In this document: positions 13,476-49,340 of the stretch, one piece after another
How positions within the stretch are numbered: position 1 is the first letter of the stretch
How the letters are laid out: each line of letters begins with the position of its first letter
Translations under genes and position numbers: made by a program
NCBI GenBank assembly: GCA_947039485.1
Contig: CAMQZC010000004.1
Span: forward strand, 1 to 64,000
Source: an uncultured Verrucomicrobiales bacterium
GTDB taxonomy: Bacteria; Verrucomicrobiota; Verrucomicrobiia; Verrucomicrobiales; Akkermansiaceae
Length of the DNA stretch: 64,000 nucleotides
Reading direction: 5' to 3'
Notes under the pieces: generated by a model
What the model saw: the letters and a program-made list of their open reading frames with translations, nothing else
The model's database searches: none
What the model was told of the DNA's origin: nothing

Positions 13476-13741
13476 TTAGGATTGCTTCTTGATGAGCACG
13501 TGGCGGCGGAAGCTGAGTACATCTACGCCATCTTGGTTGCTCGCAATGCTCTCGACGTAGACAACGCCGCGGTCAGCCTTGCTCTGCGACTCCTTCTTAT
13601 CTAGTACGAGGGTGCGCACGTAGATGGTGTCGTTGATAAATACAGGGTTGAGGTGCTTTGCGCCTCGTAGCCGAGATTAGCAATAGCCTTGCCACTCACA
13701 TCAGGTACGGTGATTCCTACAGCGAGGGGAGAGGCTTGCAT
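13476..13741 (-). pseudogene. MaoC-like (R)-hydratase remnant
   Basis: Two overlapping frames together spell a C-terminal MaoC hot-dog segment: KAIANLGYEAQ in one, then HLNPVFINDTIYVRTLVLD, ESIASNQDGVDVLSFRRHVL to a TAA at 13476 in another, with the shift around 13660. NPVF-x-x-DT and the NQDG...SFRR ending are typical. About 40 or more N-terminal residues, including the catalytic Asp/His, are missing, so it is a dead fragment. Its presence in a glycan locus is unexplained; the methylmalonyl-CoA genes elsewhere in the window show no link. Confidence 0.75.
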
Positions 13742-13818: not shown

Positions 13819-14478
13819 TTAAGCTCGTTTTTTGAGAATGTGGGCAGGGTTTCCGATAACGGTAAGATCGTCGCTTAGCTCTTTAAGAACGTTGGAGCAC
13901 TGGCCGACAATGTTGCGATTGCCGATGTGGATATTGTTGCCAAGGGTTGCTTTGAGTCCGACAAAGTTCATGTCTCCAATGTGGAGACCACTGCCGATGC
14001 ACGCTTGGGACGCGACGAAGTTGTTGTTGCCCATGGTGGTATCATGCCCAAAGTGTGTGCCATAGAGAAAGGTGTTGAAGTTGCCAATCCTTGAATTGGT
14101 ATTGACTGAGCAGTTGCAGAGGATGACGTTACCATAGCCAATGTTGACTGATCGAGCTATCATCACGGAGGGGTGGATGAAGTTACAATACTTTTCCGCA
14201 GGGAAGTCGAGCTCGTAGAGTATCTTTGAGCGCTCTTTTAAAACATCCATACGGTAAAGCTGATAGATGTATTTGACGTCATCATACTTGCCATATTGCT
14301 CATGCAGCTCGCGTATAGGGCAGAGAATCGGGTAGCCATTGACTGAGGGACCGCCTGAGAGGTCGTCAAGAGCAAGGCCTAGGACCTCAATATTCATGCC
14401 GCAGCGTGTGCGTGCATCTTCAATTTGATCGGCGATTACGGTAGGAGTGCCTCTCCCTCCGATGATAATGATTTTCAT
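13819..14478 (-). CDS. NeuD/PglD-like sugar O- or N-acyltransferase
   Basis: 219 aa from ATG at 14478 (MKIIIIGGRG), the normal family start; the longer frame to 14607 is unsupported. An N-terminal Rossmann-like domain binds the sugar nucleotide, then imperfect hexapeptide repeats (SVNIGYGNVILCN, GNNNFVASQACIGSGLHIG) form a left-handed beta-helix that binds acetyl-CoA, ending in VIGNPAHILKKRA. The catalytic His may be that of GTHFGHDT. Homologues acetylate sialic acids or bacillosamine-type sugars. It is the only apparently intact gene between the two broken genes that flank it. Confidence 0.85.
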   Translation of the reverse strand: MKIIIIGGRGTPTVIADQIEDARTRCGMNIEVLGLALDDLSGGPSVNGYPILCPIRELHEQYGKYDDVKYIYQLYRMDVLKERSKILYELDFPAEKYCNFIHPSVMIARSVNIGYGNVILCNCSVNTNSRIGNFNTFLYGTHFGHDTTMGNNNFVASQACIGSGLHIGDMNFVGLKATLGNNIHIGNRNIVGQCSNVLKELSDDLTVIGNPAHILKKRA

Positions 14479-14670: not shown

Positions 14671-15361
14671 TTAGTTTAGAAGGATAGGTGATTCGTGTAC
14701 CATGCTTGATGTTTTAGCTTTGCCGTTGAACATGAGCACATCCAGTATTGAAAGTCCTGCGATGAAATCTGGTCCAAATTGGGTGTAGCTCTGAATCGTA
14801 GGCTGGAGAAAGGATAGCTTGACCCCAGCGTCGCTGAAGTCTTTGTGTTGGTAGAGTGATTGCCCTCCAATAGCGTTGATATAGTGATTAGCAGATGTTA
14901 ATTTGCAGAGCTCTAGGACTTTTTCTTGTGCTGGCTTTAGGTTGTCAAAATGATAACTTGAGGCTAATCGCTTGGGCGTAGCTATATCGAGATGATCACA
15001 TATCATGGAGAGAGAGTGAGCCAAGTAGGGCAGCAGCTGGCGTTCTTCAAGAGTGATGATGCTGGATATTCTCCTCAAAGAAGGGTGCTTTTCTGTAGTT
15101 TTCTTCAATGCGCTTGATGAGTTTATCTGCGCGATAGAGCGTCGCTATCTCGCGCTGGCCAATGCTACTATTGAGCGCTGCTGATTTTATGGGTAGAGAG
15201 AAGTAAGCTGCTTGCTTTTTTTCCAAAAGCCTGTTTCTATTACACCAGCCATTTTTAGAGTACTGCGCTGTATCGTAAATTATATAGTGATCAACAGCTG
15301 CAATGAGCTGAAAATAACCAATATATGGCAAGAAATATGGCTGCATAATGCCTAGTTTCAT
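14671..15361 (-). pseudogene. WbqC family protein, frameshifted (copy 1)
   Basis: The start MKLGIMQPYFLPYIGYFQLI at 15361 is the canonical WbqC N-terminus (KxGIMQPYxFPYIGYFQL). The frame ends in TGA near 15047 after KAPFFEEN. The adjacent frame carries the rest: SSIITLEERQLLPYLAHSLSMIC, YINAIGGQSLYQ and GLSILDVLMFNG to TAA at 14671. Together they make a full-length (about 230 aa) WbqC protein, a family found in O-antigen and nucleotide-sugar loci and of uncertain chemistry. The ATG overlaps the upstream aminotransferase stop (ATGA). The same frameshift occurs in the second copy at 22315-22981. Confidence 0.85.
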
Positions 15362-16565
15362 GACGTGATGATGCTAGTGATTCGAACCAGTGTGCTATCT
15401 TCGATTCCGGCGTAAATAGGTAGGCAAAGGACAGTTTCTGCGAGCTTGCGCGCAACGGGGATGTGCGCAGCTTTCGCTGAGAGGGTGTTGCGATAGGCCT
15501 CGAAATCAGGGATGACAGGGTAGAAGTAGCGGCGCGCAAGGATGCCTTCAGCCTTGAGCTTGTTATAGAGCTCATCACGGCTCATGCCGTAGGCGGCCTC
15601 ATCGATGTAGATGGGGAAGTAGGAGTAGTTATGCTTAACTCCTGTAATATCGGCGATACAGCGGATTCCGGGGGTGTCAGCGAGAGCTGCGCGGTAAATA
15701 TTGGCAGCTTTTTTACGACTGGCAATAGCATCATCAATTTGCTTGAGGTTGAGTAGACCGTAGGCGGCGCGTATCTCATCCATCTTGGAGTTGATGCCAT
15801 GTGCGAGGACGCTAAGCTCCCCTGTGAAGCCAAAGTTCTTGAGCTGGTCAATATGCTGCTTGCTCTCGGCACTGGGGCAGATGAGGGCTCCGCCTTCTAC
15901 CGTGTTGTAGACCTTGGTCGCATGAAAGGAGAGGGTGGACATATCGCCCTGCCTGAGGATGCTCTCGCCATTGACCTCGACGGCAAAGGCGTGGGCGGCA
16001 TCATAGATGACCTTGAGTCCGTGCTTGTCGGCGATGGCTTGAATGGCGGATGTGTCGCATGGCGTGCCATAGACATGCACAGCCATGATGGCGACTGTGG
16101 CAGGGGTGATGGCTTCCTCGATGAGTGCGGGATCGATGTTGCCCGTCTCTACCTCCACGTCAACAAAGATGGGGGTGAGTCCATTCCACCAGAGGGAGTG
16201 GGTGGTGGCGACAAAGGAGTAGGGGGTGGTGATGACCTCCCCGCGACGCAGATTCATCGCCTGCAGGGCTGTGATGAGGGGCAGGGTGCCATTGGTAAAG
16301 AGGCTCAGATGAGGGGTCTTGAGATAGTCGCTTAGCGCGGCCTCTAGTAGCTGGTGATAGTGGCCGTTGTTGGTGAGCCACTTGCGCTCCCAGATATCAT
16401 CCAGTAACTCCTTGAACTCATCAAGGGGTGGTAGCAGGGGGCTGGTGACGGTAATAGGGGGCTGGCTCATAGCTTAGCAGAAGGGGCAGTATTTGCGTAA
16501 GTACAGTATGCCAAAATAGATAGCTGATGTCAAGCAGGCTTCAATGCTAAGTTGCGCATCGTTGA
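14720..16565. repeat. 1.85-kb near-identical block, copy 1 (wbqC-aminotransferase-flippase tail)
   Basis: Matches 22360-24290 at very high identity across the wbqC-like frames, the whole aminotransferase and the start of a flippase 3' tail. Relative to copy 2 it lacks about 70 bp near 16500, lost between short direct repeats containing cgta. Confidence 0.92.
15358..16470 (-). CDS. DegT/DnrJ/EryC1/StrS sugar aminotransferase (copy 1)
   Basis: 370 aa, PLP-dependent fold type I. Visible motifs: FTNGTLPLITALQAM, GEVITTPYSFVATTHS, the cofactor Asp in VIYDAAHAF, the Schiff-base Lys in LSFHATKVYNTVEGGAL and the C-terminal ARRYFYPVIP. Enzymes of this family add an amino group to keto-sugar nucleotides such as dTDP-4-keto-6-deoxyglucose; the rfbA/rfbB genes in this window could supply such a substrate, which is inference. 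A second copy at 22978-24090 differs at only a handful of residues. It overlaps the wbqC-like ATG by 4 bp, suggesting coupled translation. Confidence 0.93.
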   Translation of the reverse strand: MSQPPITVTSPLLPPLDEFKELLDDIWERKWLTNNGHYHQLLEAALSDYLKTPHLSLFTNGTLPLITALQAMNLRRGEVITTPYSFVATTHSLWWNGLTPIFVDVEVETGNIDPALIEEAITPATVAIMAVHVYGTPCDTSAIQAIADKHGLKVIYDAAHAFAVEVNGESILRQGDMSTLSFHATKVYNTVEGGALICPSAESKQHIDQLKNFGFTGELSVLAHGINSKMDEIRAAYGLLNLKQIDDAIASRKKAANIYRAALADTPGIRCIADITGVKHNYSYFPIYIDEAAYGMSRDELYNKLKAEGILARRYFYPVIPDFEAYRNTLSAKAAHIPVARKLAETVLCLPIYAGIEDSTLVRITSIITS

Positions 16566-19619: not shown

Positions 19620-19908
19620 TGTGGTTTCTTGAGTTTTTAAATAGAGATTTTGAAAAATGCTCATCCGAGAGGACGCGCATTTTGTCTCTATGTTATTGGT
19701 GCCGTATTGTTGTATTAACTGACTGGGCGGGTGTCAAGGTGTTGTTTTTATAGTATAGTTGATCTTGTCTGAAGTTTATAATATTCTGTTTGATCGTGAA
19801 GCTTTGTTATATCTGTTCAATAGCTTTTATCATACTGGATTAGTAACGCTTTAGTGGACTCTTTATTATCGCATAGATGGTTTTTGCTATGATTGGAGTT
19901 TTGATTCC

Positions 19909-19960
19909 AATTCGAGATTCTAATTCGAGATTCTAATTCGAGATTCTAATTCGAGATTAT
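19909..19960. repeat. four 13-bp tandem repeats
   Basis: Unit AATTCGAGATTCT occurs three times exactly and once with a change, directly head to tail, ending 20 bp from the stop of the OCD-like gene. Confidence 0.95.
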
Positions 19961-19979
19961 CACATTGGGTAATATAGAT

Positions 19980-20978
19980 TTACCGCGGGAGATGGAGTCC
20001 TATATTTTCGCTGTTTAATTGTTGGTAGAAACAGTGAGAAATAGCTATATCTAGAAAGGCTAAACCCACGCTATTAAAATAAATGAACTCATCATTATTT
20101 TCTCTCCCAGGAGCTTTGCGTGCAATAATTTCGTAGAGGTTAGGGTGGATCATGTCGTCACGGAGTATACCTTCTTGATACATTTTGCTGATTGTTTGAG
20201 TTCGATGCTTAACATTCTCCCAGTCGTCGCAAACAATTTTATCCGCTTTGAGCGCTACTGCATATTCATCTTCCCATCCGCCAACGTGACAATAAAATGC
20301 TCCGTTTTTGATGCTGGATGCTTGAAGTAGCGGTGCTTGAGTACTCGTAGCGGTAACAATGATATCACAGTTTTTAGGCGCATTGCTTAGATTTGTATCA
20401 AATGTTGTGCATGAGATATCAGGATAGAGTCGTTCTAAATCTTCTTTGAGTTTTGCTTCACTTGCAGCTTGTCGAGAAACGATATGACACTGCTTTAAAT
20501 TTGGGAATACCTCTTTCATCGCGATGAAATGCATTTTTGCTTGTTCGCCTGCACCAATCAGGCAGATTGATTGTGATGATGGTTTGGCTAGGTATTTGGC
20601 AGCAACCGCACCGACGCCTGCAGTTCTAGCTGAGGTACAGTACGTACCGTCCATGATTGCAATTGGTAACCCCTTTTCTAGCTCTGACAATATGATTAGC
20701 CCCGCGACGTTTGCGATGTTGTGAAGGCTGGGGTTTTTAGGAAAAATGGATACCCATTTAACACCGCATATTTGATCGCCAAGCAAGGTGGCAGGCATAC
20801 AGTTGATTCTATTCTGACTTTCTAGATCAAATATTTGACAGATTTTTTCAGGTAGCAAAACCTGTCCTTGGCTGTATGCCAAAAATGCGGCCTCGATGAT
20901 GTTCAGAATATTTCGTATATGGCTACAGGGCGATTGAACAATATCATCGTAGCTGATGTATTTGAGGGTGGTTGTCAT
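19980..20978 (-). CDS. ornithine cyclodeaminase / mu-crystallin family (SbnB-like) dehydrogenase
   Basis: 332 aa. Family marks: KWVSIFPKNP, LPIAIMDGTYCTSARTAGVGAVAAKYLA (substrate loop, Arg/Thr-Ala pair), the NAD(P) Rossmann motif LIGAGEQAKMH, CDIIVTATST and the C-terminal DEFIYFNSVGLAFLDIAI. Members include ornithine cyclodeaminase, alanine dehydrogenase and SbnB, which oxidatively cleaves an amino-acid adduct in diaminopropionate synthesis; the substrate here cannot be read from sequence. It is 18 bp downstream of an ATP-grasp gene on the same strand and both are AT-rich, pointing to a horizontally acquired two-gene unit inside the glycan locus. Confidence 0.88.
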   Translation of the reverse strand: MTTTLKYISYDDIVQSPCSHIRNILNIIEAAFLAYSQGQVLLPEKICQIFDLESQNRINCMPATLLGDQICGVKWVSIFPKNPSLHNIANVAGLIILSELEKGLPIAIMDGTYCTSARTAGVGAVAAKYLAKPSSQSICLIGAGEQAKMHFIAMKEVFPNLKQCHIVSRQAASEAKLKEDLERLYPDISCTTFDTNLSNAPKNCDIIVTATSTQAPLLQASSIKNGAFYCHVGGWEDEYAVALKADKIVCDDWENVKHRTQTISKMYQEGILRDDMIHPNLYEIIARKAPGRENNDEFIYFNSVGLAFLDIAISHCFYQQLNSENIGLHLPR

Positions 20979-20996
20979 GCTAGTGACTCTCTATGT

Positions 20997-22247
20997 TTAG
21001 TTGTAAAGGTTAAATAAAAGATTTTCATCATGTTCATTATAAACGGCTAGAGTTGACATGATTCGGCGCTCTATATCTACTAACTCGTTCTTATTATTGC
21101 ATTCAATATGGATATATGCGAATACTTGCTGTGCGCTGCCCCAGCTCTCGATGATATCACCCTCTTGATGTACAAGAACAATCTGCTGAACTTCTTCGAA
21201 GGATTTAACCTCATCAAGCCTCTCTACTTTTACCATCTTACCTGCTTTGAGGTGAATAGGTAGAATAATATAGGTTTTTTCGTAGTTGTAACAAGGGGTT
21301 GGGATCTCCAGATTTTTGCCGAGTAATGCATATTCTATCTGATGTTGAAGTTGATCAATTTGGCTGAACTTTTTGACAGGGTAGTAAGTCAAAGACCCTC
21401 CGTACCTATAGCCCATTTCATTAAATGAGAACTCTCCGTGGTCGCAGAATGCTTCAATCCAAACAACGCCATTCTTCAAGCCTATGTCTTGGATCATGTC
21501 GATTGTTTGTTTGTTGAGCGTATTGAGATATATTTCTTCGTATAAGGAAGGGAATACTTGCAGGCTCATGATGGGAGCTCCATCATCAAAGACTTTCTTT
21601 GATGATTTATCCGACATACAACCATAATAAACAGCGCCATTGACAATCGTGTAATTGATGATGACGCTGTTTTCAAAATTCATCTTTTTTTCAATGAGTA
21701 TTTTTTTCTTCGTCGAATAATCTAGGGCATGGTTGCACGCGGCTTTGAGCTCGTCAAGATTATTACATATGGAGAAGCCTCGGCTGCCGCTACCGTCAGA
21801 TGGTTTGACGATAACAGGAAACTCGGAACTTTCGATTTGAAAAGTCTCCCAACTATCAAAATCATATTTTTTGGTGATAGGTATACCAAATTTAGTGCAG
21901 CATTGTTTAAACAATTCCTTATCATTAGTCATATCCCACTGTTTAGCACTACAGACGCAGGGCAGATTTAGTCTGTGGCAAAGTGTAATCATTTGCTCAA
22001 TGTTAAACTCATGCACGCCTGTGCAAACACCATCTATCTGGTGTTCTATGATATACTGCTCAAGTTCTGCAATATTCGCGGTGCTTATTTCTAATGTAGC
22101 ATCAGCTAGCTTCTTTGCTGGCGAACATGCATCGGATAAATAATCAGCTACCGTCGTGTGAATACCTAAGGATTTAGCGTATTGAACAATTTCGCAGGAA
22201 CCGATAGGTTTACCTCCTAAGATGAGGATTTTTTTTTCTTTTAACAT
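20997..22247 (-). CDS. ATP-grasp ligase
   Basis: 416 aa. N-terminal pre-ATP-grasp Rossmann domain (KKILILGGKPIGSCEIVQYAK), a cofactor segment EFPVIVKPSDGSGSRGFSIC with the ATP-binding Lys and Gly loop, and a metal-site strand FSFNEMGYRYGGSL (Glu/Asn). The layout is of carbamoyl-phosphate-synthase-like, BacD/PurK-type ligases that join a carboxylate to an amine through an acyl-phosphate. The acceptor is unknown. Pairing with an OCD-like dehydrogenase suggests synthesis of a small amino-acid conjugate or amidation of a glycan component. Codon use is AT-rich compared with flanking genes. Confidence 0.88.
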   Translation of the reverse strand: MLKEKKILILGGKPIGSCEIVQYAKSLGIHTTVADYLSDACSPAKKLADATLEISTANIAELEQYIIEHQIDGVCTGVHEFNIEQMITLCHRLNLPCVCSAKQWDMTNDKELFKQCCTKFGIPITKKYDFDSWETFQIESSEFPVIVKPSDGSGSRGFSICNNLDELKAACNHALDYSTKKKILIEKKMNFENSVIINYTIVNGAVYYGCMSDKSSKKVFDDGAPIMSLQVFPSLYEEIYLNTLNKQTIDMIQDIGLKNGVVWIEAFCDHGEFSFNEMGYRYGGSLTYYPVKKFSQIDQLQHQIEYALLGKNLEIPTPCYNYEKTYIILPIHLKAGKMVKVERLDEVKSFEEVQQIVLVHQEGDIIESWGSAQQVFAYIHIECNNKNELVDIERRIMSTLAVYNEHDENLLFNLYN

Positions 22248-22314: not shown

Positions 22315-22981
22315 TTAAATCAGCTTGTAGTTGTTAATCATGCCGGCTGTTTTCTCTTTGCCATTAAACATGAGCACATCCAGTATAGAAAGTCCTGCGA
22401 TGAAATCTGATCCAAATTGGGAGTAGGTTTGAATTGTAGGCTGGAGAAAGGATAGCTTGACACCAGCGTCGCTGAAGTCTTGGTGTTGGTAGAGTGATTG
22501 CCCTCCGATGGCGTTTATATAGTGATTGGTAGATGTTAATTTACAGAGCTCTAGGACTTTTTCTTGTGCTGGCTTTAGGTTATCAAAATGATAACTTGAG
22601 GCTAATCGCTTGGGCGTGGCTATATCGAGATGATCACATATCATGGAGAGAGAGTGAGCCAAGTAGGGCAGCAGCTGGCGTTCTTCAAGAGTGATGATGC
22701 TGGATATTCTCCTCAAAGAAGGGTGCTTTTCTGTAGTTTTCTTCAATGCGCTTGATGAGTTTATCTGCGCGATAGAGCGTCGCTATCTCGCGCTGGCCAA
22801 TGCTACTATTGAGCGCTGCTGATTTTATGGGTAGAGAGAAGTAAGCTGCTTGCTTTTTTTCCAAAAGCCTGTTTTTAGAGTACTGCGCTGTATCGTAAAT
22901 TATATATTGATCGACAGCTGCGATGAGCTAGAAATAACCAATATATGGCAAGAAATATGGCTGCATAATGCCTAGTTTCAT
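22315..22981 (-). pseudogene. WbqC family protein, TAG plus frameshift (copy 2)
   Basis: Near-identical to 14671-15361 but with TAG at 22928-22930 (codon 18, GYF-stop-LI, where copy 1 has CAG Gln), an in-frame 18-bp deletion that removes GWCNRN, and the same frameshift after KAPFFEEN. The C-terminal part (from the frame starting at 22746) stays open to TAA at 22315. The last 15 residues differ from copy 1, marking the edge of the conserved block. Its ATG overlaps the aminotransferase TGA as in copy 1. Confidence 0.88.
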
Positions 22982-24290
22982 GACGTGATGATGCTAGTGA
23001 TTCGAACCAGTGTGCTATCTTCGATTCCGGCGTAAATAGGTAGGCAAAGGACAGTTTCTGCGAGCTTGCGCGCAACGGGGATGTGCGCAGCTTTCGCTGA
23101 GAGGGTGTTGCGATAGGCCTCGAAATCAGGGATGACAGGGTAGAAGTAGCGGCGCGCAAGGATGCCTTCAGCCTTGAGCTTGTTATAGAGCTCATCACGG
23201 CTCATGCCGTAGGCGGCCTCATCGATGTAGATGGGGAAGTAGGAGTAGTTATGCTTAACTCCTGTAATATCGGCGATACAGCGGATTCCGGGGGTGTCAG
23301 CGAGGGCTGCGCGGTAAATATTGGCAGCTTTTTTACGACTGGCGATGGCAACCTCAACTTGCTTGAGGTTGAGGAGACCGTAGGCGGCGCGTATCTCATC
23401 CATCTTGGAGTTGATGCCATGCGCGATGACGCTAAGCTCCCCTGTGAAGCCAAAGTTCTTGAGCTGGTCACTATGCTGCTTGCTCTCGGCACTGGGGCAG
23501 ATAAGGGCTCCGCCCTCCACGGTGTTGTAGACCTTGGTCGCGTGAAAGGAGAGGGTGGACATATCACCCTGTCTGAGGATGCTCTCGCCATTGACCTCGA
23601 CGGCAAAGGCGTGGGCAGCATCATAGACGACCTTGAGCCCGTACTTGTCGGCGATGGCTTGAATGGCGGATGTGTCGCATGGCGTGCCATAGACATGTAC
23701 CGCCATGATGGCGACGGTGGCAGGGGTGATGGCTTCCTCGATGAGTGCGGGATCGATGTTGCCAGTCTCCTCCTCCACGTCGACAAAGATGGGGGTGAGA
23801 CCATTCCACCAGAGTGAATGGGTGGTGGCGACAAAGGAGTAGGGGGTGGTGATGACCTCTCCACTCCGCAGATTCATCGCCTGCAGGGCTGTGATGAGGG
23901 GCAGGGTGCCATTGGTAAAGAGGCTCAGATGAGGAGTCTTGAGATAGTCGCTCAGCGCGGCCTCTAGTAGCTTGTGATAGTGGCCGTTGTTGGTGAGCCG
24001 CTTGTGCTCCCAGATATCATCAAGTAGCTCCTTGAACTCATCAAGGGGTGGCAGGAGAGGGCTGGTGACGGTGATGGGTGGATGGCTCATATGGTGACGG
24101 TGATGGATGGATTATAGCTTAGCAGAAGGGGCAGTATTTGCGTATCTTGGCAAAGACGCCTTTCTCTTCGATCGTGGAGAGTATCTCGGCGAATGAGTCA
24201 TCTTTACGTAAATGCAGTATGCCAAAATAGATAGCTGATGTCAAGAAGGCTCCAATGCTAAGTTGAGCATAGTCGGGTAGGGTGGTCAAG
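22360..24290. repeat. 1.9-kb near-identical block, copy 2
   Basis: Partner of 14720-16565. Identity fades within the wbqC-like 3' end on the left and inside the flippase tail on the right. Confidence 0.92.
22978..24090 (-). CDS. DegT/DnrJ/EryC1/StrS sugar aminotransferase (copy 2)
   Basis: 370 aa, intact and almost the same protein as copy 1 (15358-16470). Differences I see include SHPP for SQPP, EHKRL for ERKWL, KLLE for QLLE, EEETG for EVETG, VVYDAAH for VIYDAAH and VEVAIAS for IDDAIAS. The Schiff-base Lys (FHATKVYN) and PLP Asp are kept. Both copies are open while their wbqC-like partners are broken, so selection may still act on the aminotransferase or the duplication is recent. Likely role: amino-sugar nucleotide synthesis for surface glycan. 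Confidence 0.93.
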   Translation of the reverse strand: MSHPPITVTSPLLPPLDEFKELLDDIWEHKRLTNNGHYHKLLEAALSDYLKTPHLSLFTNGTLPLITALQAMNLRSGEVITTPYSFVATTHSLWWNGLTPIFVDVEEETGNIDPALIEEAITPATVAIMAVHVYGTPCDTSAIQAIADKYGLKVVYDAAHAFAVEVNGESILRQGDMSTLSFHATKVYNTVEGGALICPSAESKQHSDQLKNFGFTGELSVIAHGINSKMDEIRAAYGLLNLKQVEVAIASRKKAANIYRAALADTPGIRCIADITGVKHNYSYFPIYIDEAAYGMSRDELYNKLKAEGILARRYFYPVIPDFEAYRNTLSAKAAHIPVARKLAETVLCLPIYAGIEDSTLVRITSIITS

Positions 24291-25247
24291 CTGAGGGCAA
24301 AGGATGGGGCTGCGGACAAATGGCTCAGCGAGTGCTGCTAGGCTGATGACGGCAAAGAAGATGCCAAGCGATGAGACCTTGATGTATTTGCGGTAGGCGT
24401 TTATCAGTCGGGTCTCGTCATCTTGGATGCTAGCGAGGATGGGGTAGGTAATTTGCCCGAGGATACCAGAGACGGTGCTGACGGGGACCATGGCTAGTTG
24501 CGCACCTCTATTATAGAGACCTAGACTGGCGGTGCTGTAAAATGAGCCAATGATAAAGCTGTGAATGTTGCTATAACCTGTATCTAGTAGGCCGGAGACG
24601 GCTAAACGCGAGCCGAAGGCGAAGAATTCCTTGAATGATGTCCAAGAAAAGATAAAGCGCGGCTTCCACGGCGAGATAATCCAAACGATGATGAGGCCGA
24701 GTAGATTTGTAACAATTCCGCTAATGACGATGGACCAGTAGCTCCAGCCTGTGTAGGCGAGGTAAACGGTAATAGGCATGCCAATCATGGTGGTGATTGT
24801 GCCAATGATAGCGGGTGTTTTGAAATCTTTCCTTTTTGTGTAGAGTGTCCAATGCACCCCAGCACTGGATGTGACAAACATCATGATGGCTGAGATGCGT
24901 GTGAGCCAGATGAGCGCTGGCTCGTTAAAGATATCCGCAATCCAAGGGGCTGCGAGATAAAAAGCGCCCCCAAATACGGCATTGGACGCGATGTTGAACC
25001 AGAAGACGGTGTTGATGTCTTCCTCTGTCTCATACTGTTTTCGGATGAGCGCCTGGCCTATGCCTGCGTCTTTGAGTGTGCCTGCAATTGCGAAGAAAAT
25101 GCCTGCAAGCGCAAGGACGCCCATTTCATTAGTGGTGATGAGGCGTGCAAGGATGATGCCATAAATCATCTGTAGGGGCTGCATGGTGAACTTTTGGAGG
25201 ATCCGCCATTTTGCGCCCGTGATGGTTTCGTCTTTGATTTTTGACAT
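24119..25247 (-). pseudogene. Wzx-type flippase with internal deletion (copy 2)
   Basis: Starts at 25247 (MSKIKDETITGAKWRILQKF), the usual amphipathic start of lipopolysaccharide-type flippases, and runs through about ten membrane helices including the FAFGSRL and GLYNRGAQLA segments. After LAALAEPFV it leaves frame and ends in TAG at 24258. The C-terminal tail (QLSIGAFLTSAIYFGILHLRK...KYCPFC, TAA at 24119) continues in another frame from about 24300. The helices normally between these parts are missing, so a deletion of roughly 100 or more codons plus a frameshift has occurred. The 329-aa product may be unstable or inactive. Confidence 0.75.
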
Positions 25248-25769
25248 GGGGGATTAAAGAGTAGGCTAGCACGCTGGTTGAGGGCTGTCAAGAGATATCT
25301 AAGAGTAGATATTTTAAAGACTTTTTTCTCGATGTATGTGTTTTTCTGTGCTTGTAGGCTTTATCAAATTAGCTTATTCTCCTGAGTTTTTTAATGGTTA
25401 AATTTGTGATTTTTTAGCAGTTGGGCAGGTGCTGTTCTTTCTTGAATCATGGAATTAATAGAAGCGAGACAATCTCATGATTCAGGCTTCAACTTTGCAC
25501 CGCAGCCGCCAATAGGGGCTCAGGCTCGCCTCAAGGGGCTTGATAAAGAGTAGTTGGGACTCCTATGCCTGCCGGGCGTCAGTCATCGCGGTCGAGTAAG
25601 TAGATATAGTTGCCCGTGGCGGCAGTGATGCCTGTGTTGCGGCCTGCAGAGAGTCCTCGATTTTGCTCGTGCTTGAGGCTGATGTTAATTTTTCGGTGCC
25701 TCTGGGGCTTGTTTGTCTCTCTCTGATCTGTGGGGCTCATTAGGTACCATGTTGCCTAGCTGCCGTAGC
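25248..25769. other. gene-free region with collapsed copies of neighbouring glycosyltransferases
   Basis: 25248-25510 is AT-rich with no supported feature. 25515-25730 is a mosaic of three fragments from the GT2 and GT8 genes to the right (separate entry). No open gene. Confidence 0.7.
25515..25730. pseudogene. collapsed GT2/GT8 mosaic remnant
   Basis: 25515-25570 matches 26009-26066 (3' part of the GT2 gene at 25770-26849). 25571-25686 matches 26531-26656 (its 5' part). 25684-25727 matches 27167-27210 (5' part of the divergent GT8 gene, plus orientation). Order and orientation are those of the parent pair with the material between removed. Junctions fall at short shared words: gcagggc-like at the first and gatgt at the second. 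Confidence 0.88.
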
Positions 25770-26849
25770 TTACGATACTTGCTCTGAATTGTTTTTGTGG
25801 TAATTGAGGATGCTTTTGAGCTGGGCATCTTTGCGCAGCAGCCAATAGCGGCTGTAGATGTAGAGGAGCGCGGTGGCGATAGGGGTAGGGTACTTGCAGA
25901 GGCTGGCTGCTCGGCCGATGCGGATGTGGGCGCCCTTGCCGCCTGCTGCAATGAGGGCGCGAGGGTAGCAGCTCACATAGCGCTTGTAGTGGCGTAGTGT
26001 CTGTAGGGGGCTCAGGCTCGCCTCAAGGGGCTTGATAAAGAGTAGTTGGAACTCCCATGCCTGCAGGGCTTGGCGGTAGAGGGTGTTGCTCAGCGCATGG
26101 TGCTGCTCGCCTAGCTGTACGAGCTCGATAAAGATGCGCATGACGTGCTCAGCGCGGCGCATGATCTGCGCCCGATCTTGCCCCTTTGCGTTGGTGATGG
26201 AGCCCTCGCGCTCGAGGCGGTACCAGTAGGTCAAATCAGGGATGCCGATGATGCGAGGGCGGGTAAAGGCGACTTGCATGCTCCAGAGCTCGTCCTCGTG
26301 CAGGAGTCCTTCTGTGAAAAACAGCTTGTGCTGGATGAGAAACTCACGGGAGATGAGCTTGTTGCAGGCCATGGGGTAGTAATCGCCCCGCCAGTAGGCA
26401 TTCATCGCGTCTTGGTCGCTCAGGGCTTGGTCTACGGGGAGCCTGTGCCCCCATTCTCCACCGCTAGATTGGTCAATACAGCCAAGGGCGATGGCGCTCT
26501 CGTGCTCTGTGGCGGCTGAGAGGAGTTTTTGCAGGGCGTCAGGCAGGAGGCAATCATCGCTGTCGAGGAAGTAGATATAGTCGCCCGTGGCGGCCGCGAT
26601 GCCTGTGTTGCGGCCTGCGGAGAGTCCTCGGTTTTGCTCGTGCGTGAGGCTGATGTAGGGCCGACGATCAATCCAGTGCGCGTCAAGGTAGCGATGCGCT
26701 CGCTCAATACTACGATCCCCGCCGCAGTCGTCGATGAGGATGAGCTCTATGTCGGCTTCTTGCTCGCAGATAGAGCGTAGGCAGTCCTCGATGTAGTCCT
26801 CAACTTGATAGATGGGCAGGATGAGGCTGATGCATGGACTAGTTGGCAT
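25770..26849 (-). CDS. family 2 glycosyltransferase
   Basis: 359 aa from ATG at 26849 (alternative ATG at 26900 adds 17 residues). GT-A start SLILPIYQVEDYIEDCLRSI, nucleotide-binding LILIDDCGGDRSIE, NRGLSAGRNTGIAAATGDYIYFLDSDD with the metal-binding DSDD, and a helical C-terminus typical of capsule and O-antigen transferases (EpsJ/WcaA-like). Donor and acceptor cannot be read off. It is the first intact glycosyltransferase on the right side of the decayed region and is transcribed away from the GT8 gene. Fragments of it occur at 25515-25686. Confidence 0.9.
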   Translation of the reverse strand: MPTSPCISLILPIYQVEDYIEDCLRSICEQEADIELILIDDCGGDRSIERAHRYLDAHWIDRRPYISLTHEQNRGLSAGRNTGIAAATGDYIYFLDSDDCLLPDALQKLLSAATEHESAIALGCIDQSSGGEWGHRLPVDQALSDQDAMNAYWRGDYYPMACNKLISREFLIQHKLFFTEGLLHEDELWSMQVAFTRPRIIGIPDLTYWYRLEREGSITNAKGQDRAQIMRRAEHVMRIFIELVQLGEQHHALSNTLYRQALQAWEFQLLFIKPLEASLSPLQTLRHYKRYVSCYPRALIAAGGKGAHIRIGRAASLCKYPTPIATALLYIYSRYWLLRKDAQLKSILNYHKNNSEQVS

Positions 26850-27121
26850 GGTGTGGGTTTCTTTGGGGGTAAAGTCGAGCGCGTCGCTGCCCTTCTTCAT
26901 GCTATCATTAAGCTTTGTTTTTGCAACTCTTTTTTGGGTCTCGCTCGTGTGCTTCGCTTCCCTTTATATTCGTTGGTAGATGTTGGACGAAGGGTGATAA
27001 GTATCATTCTTGAGGATGAATAAAGAAAAACTGCTTCATGTTGAGATTCCTGCAGACGAGCGTTGCTCAGTCTCTCTCTTTGGTGTTGACGGGATATAGC
27101 TTCTCTATTACAATGGGTTTT

Positions 27122-48326: not shown

Positions 48327-49340
48327 TTATCCTTGGTTGAGGTACCAGAGGATTGTCTTGTCGATGCCGCTCTCAAAGTCCTCCTCGGCCTTCCAGCCGA
48401 GCTCGGTCTCGAGCTTGGTGGCGTCGATGGCGTAGCGGAGGTCATGACCGGGGCGGTCGGTGACAAAGGTGATGAGTTCTCTGTACTTGGCGCCGCTCTC
48501 GCGTGGTTTCTGCTCATCGAGGATGTCGCAGATGGTGTTGACAATTTGCATGTTGGTGCGCTCGTTGCGCCCTCCGACGTTGTAGGTCTCTGCGGAGCGT
48601 CCCTCGTGGTAGACTAGGTCGATGGCGCGGGCGTGGTCGAGGACGTAGAGCCAGTCACGCACGTTCTCTCCCTTGCCGTAGATGGGGATTGATTCACCTG
48701 CGAGGCATTTGCGGATGATGGTGGGGATGAGTTTCTCTCCATGCTGCTTTGGTCCGTAGTTGTTGGAGCAGTTGGAGGTGGTCACATCCATGCCGTAGGT
48801 GTGGTGGTAGGCGCGCACGAGGAAGTCGGAGCTTGCTTTGCTGGCTGAGTAGGGGCTGTTGGGGGCGTAGGGGGTGGTCTCCTCAAAGAGGCCGCTATCG
48901 CCGAGGGTGCCATAGACCTCATCGGTGGAGATGTGGTGGAAGCGGCAGCTCTCATAGCCATCCTTGTAGCACTTGGGGGCAGTCATCCAGTGGCGACGTG
49001 CGGCCTCAAGGAGCTCGAATGTGCCGATGATGTTGGTCTGGATGAAGGCGCCGGGGCCTGTGATGGAGTTGTCTACGTGGCTCTCAGCGGCAAAGTGGAT
49101 GACGCCGCGGATGTCGTGCTTGGTAAAGAGCTCGTCAAGCAGTGCGCTCTCGCAGATGCTGCCTTGCACGAAGCTGTAGTTGGTCATGCTCTCGCACTCG
49201 ACAAGGTTCTTGAGGTCGCCTGCGTAGGTGAGCAGGTCGAGGTTGATGATGTCGTATTGGGGGTACTTCTCGCAGAAGTAGGGGACGAAGTTAGCACCGA
49301 TGAAGCCGGCGCCTCCTGTTACGAGTATTGCTTGAGACAT
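48327..49340 (-). CDS. rfbB: dTDP-glucose 4,6-dehydratase
   Basis: 337 aa, extended SDR. NAD motif TGGAGFIGANF at the start, HFAAESHVDNSI, HISTDEVYGTLGD (Thr/Asp/Glu catalytic set), YSASKASSD (Tyr-Lys) and SNCSNNYGPKQHGEKLIP are all diagnostic. It makes dTDP-4-keto-6-deoxyglucose, used for L-rhamnose and other 6-deoxysugars. Last of four rml genes; its start overlaps the end of rfbD by 22 bp. Confidence 0.97.
   Translation of the reverse strand: MSQAILVTGGAGFIGANFVPYFCEKYPQYDIINLDLLTYAGDLKNLVECESMTNYSFVQGSICESALLDELFTKHDIRGVIHFAAESHVDNSITGPGAFIQTNIIGTFELLEAARRHWMTAPKCYKDGYESCRFHHISTDEVYGTLGDSGLFEETTPYAPNSPYSASKASSDFLVRAYHHTYGMDVTTSNCSNNYGPKQHGEKLIPTIIRKCLAGESIPIYGKGENVRDWLYVLDHARAIDLVYHEGRSAETYNVGGRNERTNMQIVNTICDILDEQKPRESGAKYRELITFVTDRPGHDLRYAIDATKLETELGWKAEEDFESGIDKTILWYLNQG

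Follow-up and report, generated by a model that had tools for sequence, protein, structure and literature searches.

A probably transferred ATP-grasp ligase and OCD-like dehydrogenase gene pair in a bacterial glycan locus is a candidate cassette for capping a surface amino sugar

The stretch of DNA analysed here (64,000 nucleotides, referred to as the window) carries a glycan locus in which a gene for an ATP-grasp ligase is followed on the minus strand by one for a dehydrogenase of the ornithine cyclodeaminase (OCD)/mu-crystallin family. The minus-strand order is a truncated Wzx gene, a DegT aminotransferase gene, a WbqC pseudogene, the ligase and OCD-like genes and an array of 13-bp repeats, and a duplicated unit at 13.8–17.4 kb holds near-identical DegT and WbqC copies with a NeuD-like acyltransferase gene instead of the pair. 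The features referred to below are:

13819–14478 (−): NeuD-like hexapeptide acyltransferase (PF00132) of the duplicated unit, at the place equivalent to that of the pair
15358–16470 (−): second DegT aminotransferase copy, protein 96% identical to the other copy
19903–19958 (no strand): 13-bp tandem repeat, 4.3 copies, a single array
19980–20978 (−): OCD/mu-crystallin-family NAD(P)-dependent dehydrogenase, SbnB-like, 332 aa, ATG start, intact ORF
20979–20996 (−): intergenic gap of 18 bp from the stop of the ligase gene to the start of the OCD-like gene
20997–22247 (−): ATP-grasp carboxylate-amine ligase, 416 aa, ATG start, intact ORF
22315–22981 (−): WbqC pseudogene between the aminotransferase and ligase genes, with a frameshift, an in-frame stop and a small deletion
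22978–24090 (−): DegT aminotransferase, intact; best curated model DesI (dTDP-4-keto-6-deoxyglucose 4-aminotransferase), under cut-off
24258–25247 (−): Wzx-type flippase gene, C-terminally truncated
48333–49328 (−): RmlB homologue (dTDP-4-keto-6-deoxyglucose supply), 51% identical to its RmlB-like counterpart in locus L066
50701–51561 (−): RmlA homologue (dTDP-glucose supply), 57% identical to its RmlA-like counterpart in L066

The ORF coordinates confirm the claim of a preliminary description of this DNA that the two genes are intact and 18 bp apart, a gap that would be consistent with a single transcript. The pair is also AT-rich, as had been described, with 40.3% GC against 53% (in the lowest 2% among window stretches of the same size) and GC3 values of 0.39–0.41 for its genes against 0.65–0.74 for several neighbours. 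Pseudogenes were said to flank the pair and do so in the form of the broken WbqC and the truncated Wzx, while of the 13-bp tandem repeats said to flank it there is one array, found only downstream of the OCD-like gene. The pair was further said to replace a MaoC/NeuD segment; this holds for the NeuD-like gene, and the MaoC is a fragment at best (13476–13619; top hydratase match E 0.013, under cut-off). The other WbqC copy (14671–15361) carries the identical frameshift, with overlapping frames, and because it is common to both copies the frameshift is probably older than the duplication, or else programmed. A literature search on WbqC function returned nothing useful. A further partial duplication is seen at 25515–26656, where short direct repeats of 63 and 111 nt lie internally around the gene for the glycosyltransferase at 25770–26900, and a 9/18-bp repeat, (GTCTTGCTT)n, of about 19 units translating as LLVLLV repeats occupies positions 1–172 at the window edge.

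The OCD-like protein matches OCD_Mu_crystall in Pfam (PF02423, E 7.6e-55), and SbnB is both its nearest solved structure by sequence comparison (4m54, E 3.6e-47) and the top Foldseek match (E 6e-34) of its structure model (pLDDT 94), with pyrroline-2-carboxylate (Pyr2C) reductase and alanine dehydrogenase (AlaDH) also near by structure and a Z of 40 when the fold was compared with the ornithine cyclodeaminase 1x7d. Scores against curated models are lower than required in each case: 102 bits for the PRK07589 ornithine cyclodeaminase equivalog (cut-off 350), 195 bits for the TIGR03944 SbnB equivalog (cut-off 327) and 202 bits for the TIGR02371 archaeal-type AlaDH equivalog (cut-off 409), with the Pyr2C reductase model likewise under cut-off, and we have therefore written no single known activity on the gene. 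K74 and R118 do not vary among the aligned rows, while the Arg of the AlaDH LRAMP motif is replaced by Asn in the window OCD clade (INCMP) and in the C. difficile proteins discussed below (YNVMP), and the AlaDH loop carrying PGK is absent from the window clade, as it is from SbnB. At the regions corresponding to Glu56 and Asp228 of the Pseudomonas putida ornithine cyclodeaminase (PMC3840593), the window protein has N59 and a five-residue loop gap relative to AlaDH and Pyr2C reductase, in an alignment made without the P. putida sequence. SbnB, which belongs to the L-Dap pathway of staphyloferrin B, shares the fold and the NAD cofactor and takes an N-carboxyalkyl-type amino acid as substrate; the window protein differs in scoring under the SbnB equivalog cut-off and in having no SbnA partner, as no SbnA equivalog over cut-off was found in six genomes (the host G000, G060 and four Clostridioides-type genomes). 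Together these two results weaken the diaminopropionate chemistry raised in the preliminary description.

The ligase has Pfam matches to CPSase_L_D2 and ATP-grasp_4 (E ~1e-8), and K148, E186 and R281 are invariant among 24 homologues. Its structure model, which was built without two rows from plasmid records, has a pLDDT of 89 and its top match is the L-amino acid ligase 3vot (Z 34.9), with biotin carboxylases close. The protein is L-amino acid ligase-like in having the ATP-grasp fold with the nucleotide-site Lys/Glu and the active-site Arg kept, and the L-amino acid ligases BL00235, BacD and RizA are its nearest functional kin by profile and fold, although they share only ~13–20% identity with it and release free dipeptides, whereas the acceptor proposed for the window enzyme is an amino sugar. 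In line with the SbnB and BacD-type structures suggested earlier for comparison, SbnB is the solved structure closest to the dehydrogenase and L-amino acid ligases are among those closest to the ligase.

Scanning with the OCD-like protein located the same two genes, adjacent and in the same order, in the capsule locus of a Clostridiales MAG (L023), where the order is DegT, sugar transferase, ATP-grasp, ATP-grasp and OCD followed by glycosyltransferases, and where the ligase and dehydrogenase share 30% and 50% identity, respectively, with those of the window. In maximum-likelihood trees the window and L023 proteins are sisters, both for the ATP-grasp ligases (support 99/97) and for the OCD proteins (82/74, or 87/87 in a reduced set; this support is moderate and comes with a long-branch warning), and the same join in both trees points to a cassette inherited together. 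The pair is, judged by sequence, a real conserved unit and no chance neighbourhood, and the genome search proposed earlier, which also recovered it in a more divergent form in Clostridioides-type flagellin loci, did not bear out chance co-occurrence. Neither gene has an ortholog in the further genomes sampled from the host genus, which makes acquisition by horizontal transfer likely. As for the vehicle, a phage origin was rejected as there was no ligase relative among the phage records and no OCD relative in the viral contigs, and plasmid records gave distant matches only, except for an Acaryochloris plasmid OCD (52% identical) whose gene is divided between two frames and has no ligase with it.

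Elsewhere the two families mostly occur apart. Members of the window OCD clade (>460 bits, ~50% identity to the window protein) are otherwise stand-alone genes beside peptide ABC transporters, peptidases such as an M81 metallopeptidase, or redox genes such as flavin oxidoreductases, and the next-nearest relatives adjoin an octopine/nopaline dehydrogenase (PF02317); these neighbourhoods are suggestive of opine or peptide chemistry and of nothing beyond that. We note that in three loci (L112:5942–8060, L113:7289–9408 and L114:5901–8058) the neighbours of an OCD-like gene are large putative transporter genes and a gene of octopine/nopaline-dehydrogenase type (PF02317 for L112 and L113), which is a possible opine-use operon. 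The ligase clade (A1 profile >140 bits) is found in many Clostridia glycan loci, mostly without an OCD gene, and eight fetched loci with ligase relatives (L065, L066, L069–L073 and L077) also encode a DegT protein 41–48% identical to that of the window, several of them with RmlA/RmlB as well. DesI is the top-scoring model for the DegT proteins of the window, L066 and L077, though under cut-off (280 bits for the copy at 15358–16470, with a cut-off of 650). At L077:8139–13567 a single glycan locus combines DegT with an intact WbqC, one glycosyltransferase and a tandem of two ATP-grasp ligases, and the glycosyltransferase set of L077 resembles that of the window.

The preliminary description knew of no described system with this pairing. 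This was wrong, as the C. difficile type B flagellin locus encodes a FemAB protein (0244), an ATP-grasp protein (CDR20291_0245), an OCD-like protein (CDR20291_0246) and FdtB (0247), and the adjacent 0245 and 0246 genes have mutant phenotypes: the mutants make the core trisaccharide only and lose the terminal sulfonated peptidylamido-Fuc3N, with the precise roles of the type B cap genes left unassigned (PMC5207246). We recovered this locus in four Clostridioides-type genomes (L212–L215), recognised by the gene order around fliC (fliC, three glycosyltransferases, FemAB, ATP-grasp, OCD, FdtA and FdtB); the flagellin pair was detected by the ligase profile only. Peptostreptococcaceae OCD-like matches at E<1e-30 were set aside as generic genes outside glycan loci. 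The target of the flagellin cassette is a surface-glycan amino sugar, and the cassette, like the window, has an ATP-grasp gene followed directly by an OCD-like gene together with a DegT aminotransferase gene. Unlike the window, it has FemAB, FdtA, an FdtB-type (3-amino) aminotransferase and fliC, and a tblastn search with the L212 FemAB gave no match in the window. The flagellin ATP-grasp proteins are sister to the window ligase clade (89/90) and lie outside it, while the flagellin OCD proteins share only 27–30% identity (81–90 bits, compared with >460 within the window clade) with the window OCD and form a separate long branch. With sister ligases and distant OCDs, the pairing is alike in kind and may have arisen separately, and by analogy the window pair appears to work in the manner of the flagellin cassette without belonging to it, having no FemAB and an OCD of a different subclade.

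The C. difficile cap is Fuc3N acylated by glycine, which is followed by an alanine N-alkylated with ethylsulfonate (PMC5207245). By structure this N-(2-sulfoethyl)alanine is tauropine, which is our own reading as the word is absent from that paper. None of the papers searched names both the C. difficile 0245/0246 genes and tauropine. Tauropine dehydrogenase catalyses the reductive condensation of pyruvate and taurine. The OCD family includes a tauropine dehydrogenase from a sponge (PMC3840593, PMC4113996), which can be likened to the window dehydrogenase as a member of the same protein family. Taken with the structure of the cap, this suggests roles for the C. difficile proteins in which 0246 would form tauropine from taurine and pyruvate, FemAB would add the glycine and 0245 would form the amide.

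The reading that we favour on balance, and hold with some confidence, is that the window pair is a transferred two-gene cassette by which an amino-acid-type group is added as a cap to a surface-glycan amino sugar, and the earlier proposal that the pair may add an amino-acid group to a glycan is supported as the best role for what is a conserved unit. The substrates and order of steps we propose are that RmlA and RmlB would provide dTDP-4-keto-6-deoxyglucose, which the DesI-like DegT would convert to a dTDP-4-amino-4,6-dideoxy sugar; the OCD/SbnB-like dehydrogenase would reduce the imine of a 2-oxo acid and ammonia or a primary amine to an amino acid or an N-(1-carboxyalkyl) amino acid (opine), and the ligase would activate the carboxylate of this product as an acyl phosphate before forming an amide with the sugar amine. 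As the duplicated unit has the NeuD-like acyltransferase at the place of the pair, the two units would be expected to yield the same sugar with different acyl groups. Several observations weigh against a capping cassette: the window OCD is closer to the stand-alone OCDs than to its flagellin counterpart, an adjoining OCD is lacking for most ATP-grasp relatives, FemAB is missing from the window, the neighbouring WbqC and Wzx are broken, and the DesI score is far under cut-off. A more specific version, which we put forward tentatively, is that the dehydrogenase works as an opine synthase, reversing SbnB chemistry, and the ligase places the opine on the 4-amino sugar, with a dedicated module of this kind having arisen on at least two occasions (in window/RUI376 and in Clostridioides flagellin) and the C. 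difficile cap being tauropinyl-glycyl-Fuc3N. The predicted type of product is known in nature, as the Providencia alcalifaciens O35 O-antigen is described, in work cited in PMC10609480, as having an alanopine derivative of 4-amino-4,6-dideoxyglucose, the very sugar expected from the DesI-like enzyme of the window; the gene pair is as yet a prediction for that organism.

The same cassette might instead supply a plain amino acid only (alanine, through reductive amination, or proline, with a cyclic imine as precursor) for the ligase to load on the amino sugar with no opine involved, and our confidence in this and in the capping reading overlaps, as they describe one cassette with a different dehydrogenase product. 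AlaDH and Pyr2C reductase are close relatives of the OCD-like protein by structure and sequence, and D- and L-alanine amides of amino sugars occur in O-antigens (PMC10609480), but alanine and proline are already plentiful in cells and a dedicated supplier would be odd, the curated AlaDH, Pyr2C reductase and OCD models all score under cut-off, and the flagellin pair is linked to an N-alkylated alanine (PMC5207245), so that the plain amino acid seems doubtful to us.

Two further explanations are rivals to the capping cassette. Since the locus is decaying, with the adjoining WbqC a pseudogene and the Wzx copies truncated, the transferred cassette may now be a functionless relic, and neither gene has an ortholog in the other sampled genomes of the genus; against this, the pair and the upstream DegT copy are full-length with their catalytic residues kept, and we consider the loss of present-day activity unlikely. 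That the pair makes a soluble small metabolite (a diaminopropionate conjugate, dipeptide or siderophore-like compound) and has ended up in a glycan locus by accident could draw on SbnB being the best solved match and on the resemblance of the ligase to BacD/RizA-type dipeptide ligases. We judge this very improbable, given that the pair recurs in a second glycan locus with congruent trees, its divergent counterpart acts on a glycan, the SbnA equivalog is lacking from G000, G060 and the four Clostridioides-type genomes, and genes for a transporter, an NRPS or a siderophore were not seen next to the pair.

If the capping cassette is what we propose, a similar pair with a proven role in flagellum sugar modification probably gives both window genes candidate jobs. 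Opines and N-alkylated amino acids on bacterial glycans are already known as structures, and the pair would then be a genetic signature for such caps, which alter surface charge and antigenicity; the same pair would be predicted in other organisms with opine-substituted amino sugars, and the C. difficile genes would gain specific reactions in tauropine synthesis and amide ligation. It should be noted that in our Clostridioides-type flagellin loci the OCD and FdtB genes are separated by an FdtA-like gene that is intact (PF05523, 155 bits; L212:12936–13364, also in L213–L215), where the R20291 locus is stated to be without an FdtA homologue (PMC5207245).
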